DNA of 16,862 bases from Thermococcus sp. Its GTDB lineage: Archaea > Methanobacteriota_B > Thermococci > Thermococcales > Thermococcaceae. Position 1 is the stretch's first letter. Every line of letters begins with the position of its first letter. The translations under genes were made by a program, and so were the position numbers. The notes under the pieces were generated by a model that worked only from the letters and a program-made list of their open reading frames with translations, was not told where the DNA came from and did no database searches. This document shows positions 4,433-15,116 of the stretch, piece after piece. The DNA lies in assembly GCA_027023165.1 (NCBI GenBank), contig JALVWX010000032.1, forward strand, positions 1-16,862, given 5' to 3'.

Positions 4433-5053
4433 TCAGATTTCGCCCTCTATTTCTCGTCTTATGCGCTCGATGAACTCAACGGTGAAGCGGTGCCTCTCCT
4501 CGGCGAGCCTCTTGGCGGTTTTGGTGTACATCAAATCCTTCAGCTTCAGTATCTTCTCTTCGAAGTGGGCCAGTGAGTCCTCGATGCTTCTCCCGTGCTC
4601 TCCGGAGTACATGAAGACCCTCGCGACGCCTATGGCGCCTATTGCGTCCAGTTTGTCGGCATCGCTCAGGATTTTTGCCTCCAGGGTTTCAGGCTCCGGG
4701 CCGCGGGAGAAGCGGTGGGCCTCTATGGCGTGTGCAACCTCTTTGACCTTCTCCTCCGGGTAGCCGATGCTCCTCAGGAAGTGTCTCGCTATCCTCGCTC
4801 CCTCAACTGCGTGGTCTTCAACCCTGCCGGCGCTCTCGAGAGGCCTAGCGACGTCGTGGAGGAGCGAAGCAAGGGCTAGGACTTCGAGATCGGCCTCTTC
4901 CTCCTTACCTATGTGGAGGCAGAGGTTGAAGACGCGCTCGACGTGGGAAAATCCATGAGTCCCCTCCCTCTCGAAGAAGTGTCTCGCGTATTCCTTAGTG
5001 CGCTCTATCAGCTCGATGCTCTCGGGGTCACTTATGAAGTCCTCAAGGTCCAC
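4433..5053 (-). CDS. HD-domain metal-dependent phosphohydrolase (206 aa)
   Basis: The HD-superfamily metal ligands are all visible: H37 (GFSHVERV), the H66-D67 pair (SLLHDVARP), H113 (IEAHRFSR) and the Asp cluster SDADKLDAIG (131-138). The family hydrolyses phosphoester bonds, often of nucleotides; the substrate here cannot be told from sequence. The spacing resembles the small YedJ-like stand-alone HD proteins. The C-terminal 50 residues are helical and charged (LMYTKTAKRLAEERHRF). The start codon is GTG (5053-5051), with GGTGAGAGC immediately before it; no ATG lies in frame near it. The gene lies 33 bases after the DUF2226-like gene on the same strand, across a perfect hairpin (5078-5099), so read-through from that operon is possible. 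Confidence 0.88.
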   Translation of the reverse strand: MDLEDFISDPESIELIERTKEYARHFFEREGTHGFSHVERVFNLCLHIGKEEEADLEVLALASLLHDVARPLESAGRVEDHAVEGARIARHFLRSIGYPEEKVKEVAHAIEAHRFSRGPEPETLEAKILSDADKLDAIGAIGVARVFMYSGEHGRSIEDSLAHFEEKILKLKDLMYTKTAKRLAEERHRFTVEFIERIRREIEGEI

Positions 5054-5077
5054 GCTCTCACCTGCGGGTAGAAGGGT

Positions 5078-5099
5078 GAAAGGCTGTTAAAAGCCTTTC
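5078..5099. other. Perfect 8-bp inverted repeat with 6-base loop at a gene junction
   Basis: GAAAGGCT and AGCCTTTC flank a GTTAAA loop. The structure contains the stop codon of the upstream minus-strand gene and lies 25 bases before the GTG of the HD gene. No T-run follows on the minus strand, so it is not a typical terminator. The loop gives a TATA-like TTTTAAC on the minus strand. It may be an mRNA processing, attenuation or promoter element. Confidence 0.5.
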
Positions 5100-5746
5100 T
5101 CAACCTTCTTCTTTTCCCTCACAAGCTCAAGACCTTCGCGGAGGAGATCTGCTCTATGAACGGTGTCCTCAGGGGAGAACTCAGGGGGATTCCCCACGGT
5201 GTACTTACCGTCCTTTAATAGATGACCAGTCTCATGTAGGATCTCTCTGATGGCGTCGTCTCCATGATAATCCGAGCCTTTAATAGCCCTCGCAGCCTTC
5301 ACAAGCCCGTTTTCCACGTATATTCTCCAAGCTTTCGAACCATTCTGTATCTCTACTCCTCCATTGTGAACTCCAAGAAGAGCCAGGAAGGACTCGAGAT
5401 CGCGCCCTGATTTGGAAGGAACCCCAACGAACGTCACTTGCATCTTCGGATGGGTCATAAGAATATCCTCAACATCCGCCTCGTAAATCTCGACTGCCCT
5501 GATCAGAGTGCGCTTCACCGCGTTGAATATCTCAAGAAAGGCCTCGTCCCCGCTGATCGAAGAATTTCCTGGTATCTCCTCCACCAGAGACCCAACAATC
5601 TTTCCTCTTTTAACCAGAACATACCCGATTTTCAGTCCGGATTCATTCTTCCACGCCAGTTTGAGATAGCCTTCACGTACCTTCCCAGTGAGCTCCAGCG
5701 GATCGCTGAAATCCGTCATGACGTCGATGTATTTTCCCGGAAGCAT
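5087..5746 (-). CDS. DUF2226-like protein, PATAN/DUF4388-related N-terminus (219 aa)
   Basis: No signal peptide or membrane segment is seen, so it is a cytoplasmic protein. The N-terminal part (about 17-97) contains LTGKVREGYLKLAW, then GYVLVKRGKIVGSLVEE and an acidic SGDEAFLEIF. This pattern is typical of DUF2226 in archaea and resembles the PATAN/DUF4388 domains that accompany small-GTPase and Roadblock systems. The C-terminal part (about 158-219) is different: DDAIREILHETGHLL, then NPPEFSPEDTVHRADLL and a basic helix ending KKKVEKGF. The ATG is preceded by GGAGGTG (5753-5759). It is the third gene of the V4R-like/Roadblock unit, 37 bases after the Roadblock gene. The family name is recalled by pattern, not searched. 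The role is unknown; a scaffold or sensor within a Roadblock-based switch is an inference from context. Confidence 0.7.
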   Translation of the reverse strand: MLPGKYIDVMTDFSDPLELTGKVREGYLKLAWKNESGLKIGYVLVKRGKIVGSLVEEIPGNSSISGDEAFLEIFNAVKRTLIRAVEIYEADVEDILMTHPKMQVTFVGVPSKSGRDLESFLALLGVHNGGVEIQNGSKAWRIYVENGLVKAARAIKGSDYHGDDAIREILHETGHLLKDGKYTVGNPPEFSPEDTVHRADLLREGLELVREKKKVEKGF

Positions 5747-5783
5747 TTAACCCACCTCCAAAACTTAAAATCTAAAAGGAAGC
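5747..5783 (-). promoter_or_regulatory. T-rich spacer with strong ribosome site before the DUF2226-like gene
   Basis: The reverse strand reads TTTTAGATTTTAAGTTTT (5760-5777), then GGAGGTG. It could contain an internal TATA-like element or weak termination signal within the operon. The strong ribosome site suggests independent translation of the DUF2226-like protein. Confidence 0.35.
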
Positions 5784-6137
5784 TCAGAGCATTGAAGCAA
5801 CCTTCTGAGCGTTTCTCTTTAGGTAGATCCTTACAAGGCCGAGGTTGACCCTTGGATCCGTAAGGACCGTAAGAACGGCGTTTTCACCGGCCTCGACGGT
5901 TATGATTTTTCCCTTTGGCGACTCTAGCGTCACCATGTCAACTGCCTCTTCGTGGAACACTTCCTTGGATACGTTGAGTGAGGTACCGTAGATGGTGGCT
6001 ACCATCGCCGCCACGTTCTCAACGTCAATAGTTCTGTCGCTGGCCTGTCCCTCAATTAGAAGTCCGTCTTTGCTAACAACGGCGACTCCCTTAACCCCAT
6101 CAACCCTAAAAAGGTCAGCTATAACGTTCTCAAACAT
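5784..6137 (-). CDS. Roadblock/LC7-domain protein (117 aa)
   Basis: This is a complete single-domain Roadblock/LC7 protein. It shows the initial helix MFENVIADLFRVDGVKG, the strand pair VAVVSKDGLLIEGQ, the Asp/Glu-Asn-Val-Ala-Ala helix (VENVAAMVATIYGTS), and the strands MVTLESPKGKIITVEAG and AVLTVLTDPRVNLGLVRIYL. The family (MglB, archaeal Roadblock proteins, dynein light chain 7) forms dimers that bind or activate small Ras-like GTPases. No GTPase gene lies in this window. The gene begins 6 bases after the upstream 159-aa gene, with a GGGGTGATGG site that overlaps that gene's stop, so the two are translationally linked. A T-rich stretch (5760-5777, reverse strand) follows before the next gene. 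Confidence 0.9.
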   Translation of the reverse strand: MFENVIADLFRVDGVKGVAVVSKDGLLIEGQASDRTIDVENVAAMVATIYGTSLNVSKEVFHEEAVDMVTLESPKGKIITVEAGENAVLTVLTDPRVNLGLVRIYLKRNAQKVASML

Positions 6138-6143
6138 TTTCCA

Positions 6144-6623
6144 TCACCCCAGTATTAACATGTCAACCTCAACGTGCTTCTCATTAACCCGTATCTCCTT
6201 TATAAGGACGTTCTTTCCGGAGAACTTCTTAATGGCAACTGCGATTGCATTCGCCATTGGATAAAGGATGGGTTTCATCCCCTTCTTTTCAAGCAGCTGG
6301 AGGGCGTAGAGATCCATAGGATTCTCGAGCTTCAGCGTAACCTTGTTTCCGTCCACGTCTATCTCGCCCTTCTCCGCAAAGCCGAAGGTGTTTATCATGA
6401 CCTCCGTGAAGCGGTTGAGCAGTTCCTGGGGGTCGCTGCTGCCCTCAAAGTTAAGTCCGTACTCCTCAATCATTGTGTTGAGAAGTTCCTCTCCTATGGA
6501 ATTCCCAAGCCCTTTGGCTCCAGCTCCAAGAACCTTGTAGATCCCGTACAGTATCAAATTGTTCACTTTAGTTGCCATTTCTTCCGACCTCTCATTCATT
6601 CTCTCCACGACCTTCGCCTCCAT
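6144..6623 (-). CDS. V4R/TRAPP-like small protein, first gene of the Roadblock operon (159 aa)
   Basis: The protein starts MEAKVVERMNERSEEMATKV, then has a helical part with a Gly-rich segment (VLGAGAKGLGNSIGEELL). A second helix follows (ELLNRFTEVMINTFGF), then a beta-rich end with GEIDVDGNKVTLKLENP and VLIKEIRVNEKHVEVDMLIL. The order helix, GFxE, strand, helix, strand is reminiscent of V4R/TRAPP (Bet3-like) domains, but the Cys residues common in V4R are absent, so the assignment is weak. The ATG at 6623 is preferred over the TTG at 6629: the GGGTGATT site stands 6 bases before the ATG but only 1-2 bases before the TTG. It is followed after 6 bases by the Roadblock gene. A strong TATA box lies at 6671-6680. 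The function is not recognised. Confidence 0.7.
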   Translation of the reverse strand: MEAKVVERMNERSEEMATKVNNLILYGIYKVLGAGAKGLGNSIGEELLNTMIEEYGLNFEGSSDPQELLNRFTEVMINTFGFAEKGEIDVDGNKVTLKLENPMDLYALQLLEKKGMKPILYPMANAIAVAIKKFSGKNVLIKEIRVNEKHVEVDMLILG

Positions 6624-6670
6624 CTTCAATCACCCGAAGGATCATCCACGAGCAGATAGGTTCATTTGGT

Positions 6671-6680
6671 CTTTTATAAT
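6671..6680 (-). promoter_or_regulatory. TATA box of the V4R-like/Roadblock/DUF2226 operon
   Basis: The reverse strand reads ATTATAAAAG, about 50 bases before the ATG at 6623, predicting a leader of about 27 bases. One copy of a 15-bp direct repeat (6681-6695) lies directly upstream, where the B-recognition element would be. Confidence 0.65.
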
Positions 6681-6725
6681 ATTTACGTTTGGATATTCGA
6701 TTATTATTTCATTTACGTTAAGATA
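6681..6725. repeat. Two-copy direct repeat with a 30-bp period in the divergent promoter (candidate operator)
   Basis: Copy 1 (6681-6695) and copy 2 (6711-6725) share ATTTACGTT, two variable bases, then GATA; 13 of 15 positions are identical. The 30-bp period equals about three helical turns, putting both copies on one DNA face. Copy 1 abuts the TATA box of the minus-strand operon and copy 2 lies just upstream of the plus-strand regulator gene. One protein could therefore control both directions. Confidence 0.6.
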
Positions 6726-6752
6726 AATAGAGTGGAAAACCTTTAATCTTTC

Positions 6753-7997
6753 TTGTACTTAGAATTATGCTTGGGAGATACGAATGGTAATTACAAACTC
6801 AGATATCAAAAAATTCGAGAACTTAAAAAACAGGGCCTCACAGTGGAGGAGATAGCGGCTATGTACTCCGTAACACCCCGGAGGATTTACCAGATACTGA
6901 AAGCACAGAAAGCCAAAAAAAGAGGCAGGCCCCCAAAGGAAGTGGACCCACAAGTGATATCAAAGATTATAATTCTTAGAAAAGAGGGGTTCAGCGTCTC
7001 TAAAATTCAAAAGATCCTCAACGAGGATGGCAATCATATATCACAGTACCTTGTGTGGAAGATCATCAAAAAGCATTTGAACTGTAAGAGCAGGGAGGAG
7101 TGCAGAATCAAATACGAAATGAAACAGCGAATCAACTACATAATCAGGGGGTTTCACATAGTTTATCTGGACATACTGAAGGCCAAGATCAACGACGAGA
7201 GACTAACCCTGTTTTTAGTAGTGGATGTGAACAACTGCAGGGTCCTTGAACTCACGCAAGTTCCCGCGATAACACTTGATTGGGTTATTTCAAAGCTGGA
7301 GAGCGAGTACTTTAAAACGCTCGACCCCCAGAACCTCTTCATTGTCATTTACCCCGTTCCCCCTATGTCCCCCACCAGAACTGACGAAAACAAACTTGTG
7401 AGGTTCCTCAAAAGAAAAGGCATCAGGCATATATGGGCAGAGGGAATGATCGGCAAGGATGTAAGCGAGTGCAGGAGCAGGCTATCTAGAAAGGTTTTTA
7501 AGCATTTGAATGAAGAGGCCGGACACAAAACACTTGGAGAGCTACTGGAGATCGGAAAGGAGATAATAGAAAATGAATGCAAGGAACTGCTATCCGGGGA
7601 TGCTAGTGGTGAGAGTATGAGACTACAAGTATTCGATAAACTCAAGATGTTGTTGAATGGGAAGAGAGGCTCCGAGGATATACAGAACGACATCGAGGGG
7701 CTGATGAAAAAATACAGGTTTGAGAAGGTGCTGTACACGACCTCGGAAGGACTACCCATACTGGGAACTTTCGAGGACAACGACATGCTGGCAGCCAGGG
7801 TTCCGGAGCTGTTAAAGGTGTTAAACCAGCTGGAACCTTCCCCAATTTACACCATCAAAACGGCGGATGGATCCGATGTGTATTCCATCGTTGAGATCAC
7901 GCCAGAGGTGTTCCTGTTTGCCAAGGGGACGCGAGAATTGTCCCCCAGTGAGGTACAGCAGCTGATTAAAGATGTAAGGTCCCAGCTGGGGCTTTAA
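6753..7997 (+). CDS. HTH protein with a decayed integrase core and C-terminal Roadblock-like domain (414 aa)
   Basis: Residues 17-50 form a transposase/resolvase-type helix-turn-helix (KKQGLTVEEIAAMYSVTPRR). An AT-hook-like KKRGRPPK follows (55-62), then a second HTH (63-110). Residues about 130-250 look like a retroviral-type integrase (rve) core: HIVYLDIL with D140, LVVDVNNCRVLE with D158, and VSECRSRLSRKVF with E239. The position expected to hold the second catalytic Asp reads FIVIYPVP, so it is probably inactive as a recombinase. Residues 311-414 have a Roadblock/LC7-like pattern (KVLYTTSEGLPILG, DMLAARVPELLKVL, VYSIVEITPEVFLFA). It is divergent from a Roadblock operon and probably regulates it (inference). 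The start is uncertain: no ATG is in frame, TTG at 6753 is used here, TTG at 6771 is possible, and neither has a ribosome site. The base composition is more AT-rich than its neighbours. Confidence 0.75.
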   Translation: MYLELCLGDTNGNYKLRYQKIRELKKQGLTVEEIAAMYSVTPRRIYQILKAQKAKKRGRPPKEVDPQVISKIIILRKEGFSVSKIQKILNEDGNHISQYLVWKIIKKHLNCKSREECRIKYEMKQRINYIIRGFHIVYLDILKAKINDERLTLFLVVDVNNCRVLELTQVPAITLDWVISKLESEYFKTLDPQNLFIVIYPVPPMSPTRTDENKLVRFLKRKGIRHIWAEGMIGKDVSECRSRLSRKVFKHLNEEAGHKTLGELLEIGKEIIENECKELLSGDASGESMRLQVFDKLKMLLNGKRGSEDIQNDIEGLMKKYRFEKVLYTTSEGLPILGTFEDNDMLAARVPELLKVLNQLEPSPIYTIKTADGSDVYSIVEITPEVFLFAKGTRELSPSEVQQLIKDVRSQLGL

Positions 7998-8022
7998 AAT
8001 CTTTTTAGCTTTTTAGATTGTA
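7998..8022. terminator. Shared T-rich/A-rich terminator between convergent genes
   Basis: After the TAA at 7997 the plus strand carries two T5 runs (8002-8006 and 8011-8015) flanked by AATCT/AGATT. It overlaps the last codons of the convergent DUF4392 gene, whose stop is at 8005-8007. T-runs are the usual archaeal termination signal. It should act mainly on the plus strand. Confidence 0.5.
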
Positions 8023-8829
8023 TCCAATAATCCCTCTTAACAGTTCAACCATCGCCACGTGAACATTGAGGGATACGCCATCCACGCTCGGCTCTCTTCT
8101 TTTGCTGACTCCGTCGATGAGGCCCTTCTCCACGAGGAGCCTGACGACGAACGCCTCCTCCCAGTCTTCAAGAAGGTTCCTCCCGACCTCGGTCGATACC
8201 TCCGCGATCAGACCGTACGCCCCCCAGTTAGAGACCGCCGAAAGAATCAGCTCATCGGTCTCAACGACGCTCGCTATCTTCTCACCATAGGGGACGTGCT
8301 TAACTACCAGGTCCCGGATCTTGCCCATGCCAATCTCGTTGCCTCCGTCGCCGATTCCTATCGTGGGAATACCGAGAGCCTGTGCCTCCTCTGCAATGCG
8401 GTCAAAGGTCTCGCCCACAATCGGGAGGCCCGACATTGAATAATGGTTGCCATCTTTTGCCCTACCCGGGGTCTCGATGAAGATGACCAAATCGTAGGAA
8501 GAGACATCAGGCTCTCGGGCAAACTTCAGTGAGAGGGCCTTTTGAAAGGGTTTCATTGCATTGATGACTTCCTTCTGCGCCAGTATCTCAGCCTCCCCGC
8601 CGAGAAGGGTTACGGTCCTGTATAGGGCCAGCGCCCCAGGTGGTCCGTCAGTCTCCGGAATCATGTCTGGAGGTATTGGAAAACCCGTGACGATGAGAAC
8701 GCGCCCAAAGTTATCTAAAAACAGCCTTGCAGAATTATGTAAAAAATTGGGGTTTTGCCCCCTGTAGTCAAGATAAACTCTGAGGACACCACGGTTCCCC
8801 ACGTCGGTGTTTATCAGGTGGGCTATCAT
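8005..8829 (-). CDS. D-glutamate cyclase-like protein, DUF4392 family (274 aa)
   Basis: Typical signatures of the DUF4392/D-glutamate cyclase C-terminal-like family are present. These include VTGFPIPP with ETDGPPGALAL (about 47-69), VIFIETPGRAKDGNHYSMSG (about 114-133), GIPTIGIGDGGNEIGMG (about 152-168) and VSNWGAYGL (about 198-206). In vertebrates and bacteria the related enzyme converts D-glutamate to 5-oxo-D-proline. The archaeal proteins consist of this domain alone and their substrate is not established. The ATG at 8829 follows the stop of the 58-aa gene by 3 bases, with GAGGAATGAGCG before it. It is the last gene of the operon that begins with the FtsZ-like gene. Length is normal and no signal peptide is seen, so it acts in the cytoplasm. 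A D-amino-acid role is plausible but unusual in an archaeon without peptidoglycan. Confidence 0.85.
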   Translation of the reverse strand: MIAHLINTDVGNRGVLRVYLDYRGQNPNFLHNSARLFLDNFGRVLIVTGFPIPPDMIPETDGPPGALALYRTVTLLGGEAEILAQKEVINAMKPFQKALSLKFAREPDVSSYDLVIFIETPGRAKDGNHYSMSGLPIVGETFDRIAEEAQALGIPTIGIGDGGNEIGMGKIRDLVVKHVPYGEKIASVVETDELILSAVSNWGAYGLIAEVSTEVGRNLLEDWEEAFVVRLLVEKGLIDGVSKRREPSVDGVSLNVHVAMVELLRGIIGYNLKS

Positions 8830-13178: not shown

Positions 13179-13209
13179 GTTCAGTAAGTACCCATGATGG
13201 TGATGTCTT

Positions 13210-14181
13210 GTGGCAAAGTTCGCCCTGTGGTGGGTTCGGTGGAATGGTTCTGACTACGAGTCAAGGATGACTGTGGGGAGTAGAAAAGCCACCGTTGAAG
13301 ACTTTAAGGAGAGGGGCTTTGATAGGGTTGTCGTTCTCAGCGGAGAAGGGAGGGGGATTAAGTACAGCGGACCATTCTATAATTCGGGATACAACGACGG
13401 AAGGGAATTTGCAAGATGGGTATCCAACCACATATACGGGACGCCATTGTATATAACAATACCCTTTAGCCGCCCCGAGGGATTTCCACGGGATCAAGTG
13501 CAGATACCGTTTGAGTACTCTGGCGTGAACTCATATTACAAGGGCTGGATTGACGGTGTTCTAAGCGTTGACAACAGTGACCTCACTGGATTTTACTGGA
13601 GTTACGAGAGTTGCCTTCAGACTACCTCTTACGATGAAGCCCACGTTACGAAGGAGTTCATCCAGTACATGAGCAACTACATTCCTAATCATGACCAAGA
13701 ATCAATTTGGATTCCCACCATTGGAGACAGGACTATGGATCAGGTAAAGACTTTTTGTGCTATCCCCACTCTTGCGGGGTATTTTAATCACGTGTTTGTT
13801 CAGCCCCATTATTACCAGACTACCAAACTGAGTGATGGGAGTGATTACACGTTCCAAGAACTTGCGCGTCGTGTGGAATGGATGGCCAGCAAAGGCCTTT
13901 CCATCGAAATGGAGGCTGACAACAGTATAATTGGTGAAAAAAGCAACTGCGCATACTGCAAAAGTACTCAAGGGACCTGGGAAGACGATCATTTCAAAGA
14001 AAAAGTTGGATGCGATGAGGACCCGACCCCAGAAACAGAAGAAGAGTGCATTAACCGCGCATGCGATTATTACAGAGCAATTACAGAAGTAAACCCGAGT
14101 GCATTCTCAACGAAAGCCTACTACTTCGATACAGACCTAAGAGTCATTGATAGGGTGAGATCAAAATGTCCAGACTGGTAA
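13210..14181 (+). CDS. DUF4855-family glycosidase-like TIM-barrel protein, no signal peptide (323 aa)
   Basis: The DUF4855 pattern is clear: LTGFYWSYES (125-134), IWIPTIGDR (166-174), FNHVFVQPHYYQ (192-203) and ELARRVEWMASKGLSIEMEAD (217-237). These motifs lie at strand ends of a TIM barrel, and E133 plus E233/E235 are candidate catalytic acids. The family is thought to be glycoside-hydrolase-like but has no established substrate to my knowledge. The N-terminus (MAKFALWWVRW) is not a signal peptide. An in-frame TGA at 13201-13203 excludes an extension, so the protein is cytoplasmic or exported otherwise. It has eight Cys, several in a C-terminal cluster (CAYC, then GCDED and ECINRACDY). The start is GTG with GGTGATG upstream. 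It overlaps the next gene by 16 bases, so it is co-transcribed with two secreted proteins. Composition is more AT-rich than the flanking operons. Confidence 0.8.
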   Translation: MAKFALWWVRWNGSDYESRMTVGSRKATVEDFKERGFDRVVVLSGEGRGIKYSGPFYNSGYNDGREFARWVSNHIYGTPLYITIPFSRPEGFPRDQVQIPFEYSGVNSYYKGWIDGVLSVDNSDLTGFYWSYESCLQTTSYDEAHVTKEFIQYMSNYIPNHDQESIWIPTIGDRTMDQVKTFCAIPTLAGYFNHVFVQPHYYQTTKLSDGSDYTFQELARRVEWMASKGLSIEMEADNSIIGEKSNCAYCKSTQGTWEDDHFKEKVGCDEDPTPETEEECINRACDYYRAITEVNPSAFSTKAYYFDTDLRVIDRVRSKCPDW

Positions 14182-15116
14182 TTCCCCTCTTCCTCCTTCT
14201 TTTTCTTTCCGCTTCAGTCTCTGCGTATCCTTATGTTAAAGCGCCCGGTGGCCTTTATGAAGTTCAGTACTCCGTTCTCTCAAACGGAACCGGGGCATTG
14301 ATCCACCTCTCGATCCTCCAGTGGGGAATTGACTGTGGAATGACCGACTGCTGGCCGGCCGTCTTTTACGGTCATGAATACCTCCTTTACTTCAACGGCT
14401 CCCACCTCTACCTCCTGAATTTCACGCCCGTGCTGGGAACACCCTACGTGGAATATAAAGGGGCGAGCTTTCTAAATGGGAGCTGGTACATTGAGGTTAA
14501 GTATTCCAGTGATGAAATTGATAGGTTTTACCGGCTTGACACCGGACATTTCTGTATTGAGCCTGCTAACGTTAGTTGGCTCTGGCTTCCAAAGGGGAAC
14601 GTCAGCGACTCCATATACGGCTGGAAGATTGAGTTGCAGTCGCTGGGTCCCGGTGAGTGGGGCCCCGCGAACATTAGCGACATCTGGATTGCTCTGAATA
14701 GAAATGTGAGCAGTTGGTCCCCTGGTCCGGTAACACTGGTGAACTCGAGCGTTTTCCCTGTCTACTTCACTCTTAAAAAAGACAATAACACGAGGAAGGT
14801 TACCACAATCTACGTCAATACGACCAACAACTCCAAAGGATTGATAGAAGGCTTCTGGTTTCCTAAGAGTGTTAAAATCGTAAATGTAACGACCTGCAAG
14901 TCAACTGCCCCTCAGGAGAATACCACTTTTAATGAAACCAAGACTCAAACGTCTACCCAGAGAAACATCACATGTTCTCATGTGAACACCGTTGAAAGAA
15001 TGAACAAAACATCACCCTCACCTCAAACTTCCAGCAAAAAGAGCATCTGCGGACATGGGTTTATACTCCTCAGTATTCTGGTTTTAGCCATTGCAATGGT
15101 AAGAAGGGGGGAGTAA
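14166..15116 (+). CDS. Secreted, Asn-glycosylation-rich surface protein with a CGH-type variant of the CGP-CTERM anchor (316 aa)
   Basis: Residues 1-20 are a signal peptide (MSRLVIPLFLLLFLSASVSA). The C-terminus ends ICGHGFILLSILV, a hydrophobic run and MVRRGE. This is the CGP-CTERM layout (Cys-Gly, helix, Arg-Arg), but with His297 in place of Pro. It is preceded by a Ser/Thr/Asn-rich linker (about 250-293). I count 17 N-x-S/T sites, so it is probably heavily glycosylated outside the cell and attached through the tail. Six Cys are outside the tail (for example C57, C62, C130). The middle is beta-rich with no recognised domain. The ATG uses a GGTGA site inside the preceding gene. It appears related to the next gene (see findings). 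The function is unknown; action with the DUF4855 protein is inferred from the operon only. Confidence 0.82.
   Translation: MSRLVIPLFLLLFLSASVSAYPYVKAPGGLYEVQYSVLSNGTGALIHLSILQWGIDCGMTDCWPAVFYGHEYLLYFNGSHLYLLNFTPVLGTPYVEYKGASFLNGSWYIEVKYSSDEIDRFYRLDTGHFCIEPANVSWLWLPKGNVSDSIYGWKIELQSLGPGEWGPANISDIWIALNRNVSSWSPGPVTLVNSSVFPVYFTLKKDNNTRKVTTIYVNTTNNSKGLIEGFWFPKSVKIVNVTTCKSTAPQENTTFNETKTQTSTQRNITCSHVNTVERMNKTSPSPQTSSKKSICGHGFILLSILVLAIAMVRRGE

Follow-up and report, generated by a model that had tools for sequence, protein, structure and literature searches.

A transposase-derived protein joined to a Roadblock-fold domain, a candidate regulator of its own divergent operon in Thermococcus

The window (the whole 16,862-nucleotide stretch of Thermococcus DNA analysed here) includes a gene in which a domesticated DDE transposase is joined to a predicted Roadblock domain, and which on balance probably encodes a regulator, more likely an activator, of the divergent promoter of the u6144, Roadblock protein and DUF2226 genes, acting via a 17-bp candidate site (Table 1). 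The two helix-turn-helix (HTH) units of the transposase would have been retained for DNA binding, and its integrase-fold core, with catalysis gone, as a scaffold, probably for dimerisation; the Roadblock domain, elsewhere the product of a separate overlapping gene, would have become joined to the end of the transposase-derived protein. We infer that the 17-bp site next to the BRE/TATA elements of the divergent operon is where this protein binds and sets the activity of that promoter, activation being likelier than repression, and that its Roadblock part couples regulation to the products of the cassette itself, for which pairing with the MglB-like Roadblock protein would be the simplest way.

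Domesticated transposases that serve as promoter-specific regulators are best known from eukaryotes. Transposase domestication and Roadblock domains are each familiar, and it is their combination, the cassette and the split-to-fused history that appear to be new: neither architecture nor cassette is described in the titles and opening lines of abstracts of the open-licence literature searched. In archaea such a case can be traced through relatives that keep the triad, through split and fused versions of the gene, through a candidate site and through natural instances in which regulator and site were lost together, and the proposed switch is small enough for tests with purified parts.

Table 1. 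Features of the cassette and of its flanks in the window
Feature	Coordinates	Strand	Basis or remark
Fused N-C gene	6753..7997	+	frame of the sequence-only reading; 414 aa from a TTG start
Two HTH units with GRPPK linker between	6810..7079	+	extent is the region homologous to relatives
Integrase-type RNase H-like core without second catalytic Asp	7155..7526	+	alignment, structure model, profile comparison
Internal Met where the separate C gene starts in other genomes	7617..7619	+	alignment
Roadblock-fold domain (predicted)	7671..7994	+	structure model, distant profile link
17-bp candidate regulator site TGAAATAATAATCGAAT	6695..6711	-	motif discovery and matrix scoring
BRE/TATA-like promoter of divergent operon	6671..6685	-	9 nt past candidate site; by eye
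u6144, 161 aa, first gene of divergent operon	6144..6629	-	86-98% identity to window's
MglB-like Roadblock protein, 117 aa	5784..6137	-	Robl_LC7 62.5 bits, cut-off 23
DUF2226 protein, 219 aa, fast-changing cassette member	5087..5746	-	DUF2226 36.2 bits, cut-off 22
Flank: D-glutamate-cyclase-like gene (GLUCM-like_C)	8005..8829	-	domain match and comparison of loci
Flank: HD-domain gene	4433..5053	-	domain match and comparison of loci

The open frame was confirmed in the window, along with the two HTH units, rve-type core and C-terminal Roadblock-like region that the sequence-only reading had seen in it. The HTH region matches HTH_23 (28.0 bits, cut-off 24.6) and has helices at 5-41 and 56-99 of the structure model, giving the N-terminal HTH pair of rve/IS481-like transposases. 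As that reading had expected of a structure prediction, an RNase H-like integrase fold is predicted for the core and a Roadblock fold for the C region; the input of the model was alignment A7 (22 of 45 sequences from the mixed alignment A5, itself set aside because its N rows had been set against C rows). Compared with solved structures by sequence, the profile of the transposase-derived part (N) is matched in its HTH stretches and nowhere else, and that of the Roadblock part (C) reaches a best E of 0.021, to a Robl_LC7 chain. By sequence, the C domain can also be linked distantly to a Roadblock protein from Archaeoglobus (E 8.9e-11). Pfam Robl_LC7 matches neither P0001 nor any of 14 C-domain rows, and this failure of Pfam to recognise C as Roadblock weakens the favoured explanation. 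The KRGRPPK stretch, once taken as AT-hook-like, scores 12.9 bits with AT_hook, below the Pfam cut-off of 17.4; the linker of the transposase accounts for this sequence, and the AT-hook was dropped.

The 5' end of the window copy is irregular. Relatives start at an ATG corresponding to position 6785, the frame of which breaks within about 12 codons in the window copy, and the residues that come with the listed TTG start have no match; thus this copy is evidently either interrupted at its 5' end or affected by a sequencing error, intact copies existing elsewhere. A gene out of frame at its start also counts against the favoured explanation.

The HTH pair and core have a transposase ancestry that is supported by profile comparison. 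Run against 94 Thermococcaceae genomes, the N profile, built from 11 split genes together with part of P0002, also picked up transposase-like frames in G090, G013 and G086, one of them truncated by a contig end, that have D, D and E where the features of the family would place the triad. These three triad-bearing IS481-like transposases (L057 1159-2049 (-), L058 1159-2049 (-) and L071 2702-3556 (+)) have an HTH part resembling that of the domesticated family. The N profile matches the three triad-bearing transposases over 206 columns (hhalign probability 98.8%, E 6.6e-17), the HTH part by itself with an E of 8.6e-14, and the core by itself with a probability of 61% and a score of 34.0; the highest score in 30 column shuffles was 15.5, the reversed core scored 9.6, and two unrelated profiles scored 10.0-10.1. 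Like IS481/IS3-type rve transposases (NF033577, NF033516) and the copies in L057, L058 and L071, the Thermococcus proteins have two HTHs, a GR-containing linker and then an integrase-type core, but the family differs from them in a lost triad, a single fixed locus, absence of terminal repeats and a Roadblock domain fused or adjacent. The two NCBIfam transposase models fall far below their cut-offs on the Thermococcus protein (27.1 of 224 and 25.7 of 160 bits, respectively).

The loss of catalysis that the sequence-only reading had proposed extends to the whole alignment: the second catalytic Asp is absent from 15 of 15 aligned rows, leaving no D-D-E triad in any, and the first Asp is present in all three fused rows and in none of the 12 split rows. 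The TDNG of triad-bearing enzymes has become PxPP or similar in the N family, which conserves instead PPxxPT(R/K), a following N, and a W past the next strand. With dN/dS ratios of 0.25 (window versus L043) and 0.15 (L034 versus L032), the core is evidently kept under purifying selection. An active or recently active insertion sequence would share this ancestry with DDE transposases, but the missing Asp, the single common site (one place per genome, with the same neighbours where the contig shows them) and the presence of at most one full-length N copy in each of the 13 N-bearing genomes led to rejection of that explanation, which has a vanishingly small chance of being right. Nor were terminal inverted repeats found at the cassette ends in a repeat search over 4950-8150 of the window, where the ends leave spacers of 33 bp and 7 bp, and the aligned members include no homologue with a full triad flanked by terminal repeats, of the kind that the earlier reading had named as contrary evidence.

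That reading had also asked whether homologues always sit beside Roadblock genes, and a regular link emerged: the divergent u6144, MglB-like Roadblock and DUF2226 genes adjoin N and C in 13 of the 13 fetched loci that have sequence on that side, and the cyclase-like gene is the other neighbour wherever the contig reaches it. Fourteen of 94 family genomes possess u6144 (one at a contig edge), the same 14 being the only ones among 115 genomes of the phylum; C is present in all 14 and N in 13. Close homologues of the MglB-like protein (at least 88% identity) likewise occur in 14 of the 94, one of them (G065) at a contig edge. Among the 79 genomes without C, 73 carry the HD and cyclase-like genes together on a single contig, separated by 4-102 bp; both genes are on one strand in 64 of these and on opposite strands in the other 9. 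In the remaining six genomes, including G065, the two genes do not share a contig. The same genes are 2405-3017 bp apart in 12 cassette-bearing genomes (G055 was left out of this measurement). G001, a metagenome assembly, shows both states, with 2958 bp on one contig and 52 bp on another, and in G089 another contig shows a gap of 23 bp next to a broken HD frame. From these flank distances, the five-gene cassette is evidently a distinct unit that has come or gone at a single place.

Fusion of N and C is the rarer state of a two-gene pair. From a set of 5.8 billion proteins, six align over 84-98% of the length of the window frame, with identities of 63-98%. Each has both halves, with the first HTH missing from P0006 as listed, and the others begin MVITNSD or similar. 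Among the 94 surveyed genomes, which do not include that of the window, P0002 was matched in 15: G001 is the sole one with a fused gene, 12 have N followed by a separate C (G026, G038, G045, G051, G055, G056, G057, G059, G060, G062, G064 and G067), G020 has C without N, and G089 has a fragment of C at the edge of a contig. The earlier interpretation of a captured transposase turned regulator is upheld as to ancestry, lost catalysis, Roadblock fold and the link to the operon, and revised as to the fusion, now seen as the less common state of a gene pair within a five-gene cassette at one site.

In split pairs the start of C overlaps the end of N by 14-68 bp, and 11 of the 12 pairs share one relative frame; the exception is L037 (G045), whose N gene lacks the first HTH. 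The fused form retains a Met at the position of the C start. Given the overlap and the largely constant relative frame, a single insertion or deletion could fuse N and C, and the fused protein, found in only one of 94 genomes, might be an accident without joint function. That is very improbable, for the junction is kept in six fused proteins down to 63% identity and dN/dS is 0.11 in the HTH part, 0.25 in the core and 0.14 in the Roadblock part. The presence of C without N in G020 weakens the favoured explanation and suggests that C is able to work alone, perhaps in a separate job. In that genome the Roadblock C gene (L041 9167-9630) is intact and the N gene is gone without a clear remnant.

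A conserved motif lies between the divergent genes. Motif discovery over 13 divergent intergenic regions gave an information content of 17.3 at width 16, compared with a mean of 13.4 (sd 0.35) and a top value of 14.2 among 100 dinucleotide-shuffled sets. A 17-bp matrix was built from 12 regions, which by construction score 16.0-24.3 on it; L038, held out and a close kin of L039, scores 20.0. L037, left out, where N lacks HTH1, scores 1.7 and has a decayed-looking stretch (by eye) at the expected place, and L041 of G020, with no N gene, scores 4.0; the 99th percentile of shuffled regions is 12.0, and outside the site no score in ten loci exceeds 14.4. A 13-to-2 split of this kind would arise once in 105 if the 15 loci were independent, and they are related and few; that the motif-negative cassettes number only two, from related genomes, weakens the case for the favoured explanation. 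By eye, the site is followed in 13 of 13 by 9 nt, a BRE-like A run (longer in L036 and L038-L040) and a TATA-like stretch of the u6144 operon, and its distance to the start of N varies from 42 to 148 nt.

Constant spacing of the site from the BRE favours activation. Were the same protein to repress the divergent operon from the same site, for example by keeping TFB off the BRE until released via the Roadblock part, the 9-nt distance to the BRE-like run would be close enough to interfere; however, site and TATA-like stretch do not overlap, and a fixed distance upstream of BRE/TATA is more typical of activator sites. Repression keeps an appreciable chance of being correct.

The site might instead belong to another regulator, the transposase-derived protein acting elsewhere, for example as a Cbp1-like architectural DNA binder. 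The NCBIfam Cbp1 model (NF040595) does match the HTH part weakly, at 30.7 bits, far from its cut-off of 140, and the Thermococcus protein, unlike Cbp1, continues into the core and Roadblock domain. Both cassettes that lost HTH1 or N are also without the motif, and a scan of 94 genomes for the exact pattern found it once in each of seven cassette genomes, always within the cassette and nowhere else in those genomes, which makes another regulator unlikely. Single matches also turned up in four cassette-free genomes, a number that the reversed control pattern equalled, and this counts against the favoured explanation. The exact pattern fits 7 of 13 known sites, so that weaker sites elsewhere would escape, and it speaks against a wide regulon at this stringency only.

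A small GTPase is the usual partner of Roadblock domains. Searched with PF00025, the cassette genomes (several of them incomplete assemblies) yielded no Arf/MglA-sized frame, the matches being frames of at least 303 aa, or none, and hence no candidate for such a partner. The Thermococcus Roadblock domain differs from MglB and Asgard Roadblock proteins (PDB 6h5b, 9jue, 7f8m) in being tied to a DNA-binding protein and in that no MglA-like GTPase was found beside it or, by PF00025, in cassette genomes. Such a tie to DNA binding with no evident small GTPase bears on Roadblock roles outside GTPase control. Conservons of Streptomyces (PMC4316618) resemble the cassette in being small conserved loci with a Roadblock protein and signalling partners, including a small GTPase and a histidine kinase, neither of which is recognised in the Thermococcus cassette.

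The u6144 product, among the most conserved cassette proteins, matches no recognised family. Sequence kinship with V4R was rejected: Pfam V4R has no match at its place up to E 10, and its hhalign score against V4R proteins (13.1) lies inside the shuffles (top 19.2). A weak model from an alignment of two sequences returns many TRAPP/H-NOX/V4R-type chains, and a TRAPP/V4R-like fold is at most a lead. Conceivably, the cassette is a self-contained archaeal signalling switch, in which a complex of u6144, as a TRAPPC3/V4R-like sensor, and the MglB-like protein is read by the Roadblock domain of the transposase-derived regulator, which would activate the complex's own promoter; we consider this quite unlikely. 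If true, a domesticated transposase would here underlie a Roadblock circuit that has no small GTPase.

Cassette members change at different paces. Identity to the window's is 86-98% for u6144 and 90-97% for the Roadblock protein, and in split relatives 28-33% for N, 35-46% for C and 30-62% for DUF2226. The DUF2226 proteins of L034 (11634-12311) and L032 (11810-12475) are 35% identical, as if one allele had been swapped, and N, C, Roadblock and u6144 of these loci are 84-99% identical. Between L038 and L039, dS is 0.17 and 0.16 for N and C and 2.27 for the cyclase-like neighbour. These two contrasts suggest that exchange by recombination is likely at the cassette site. They would also suit a conflict or defence module, present or absent at one site, with DUF2226, N and C as its fast-changing parts, but PADLOC models matched none of the six proteins scanned, on which ground a known anti-phage system was rejected, and no nuclease, toxin or protease domain was recognised in the cassette by domain search; a defence role is highly doubtful.

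Elsewhere in the window, 13193-15101, a stretch with frames of 323 and 316 aa, is missing from the DNA of L001: the alignment stops at 13192 and resumes at 15102. Inside the cyclase-like flank gene, 8371-8623 is unaligned to L001 at the DNA level and both sides align, as if this segment had been recombined.
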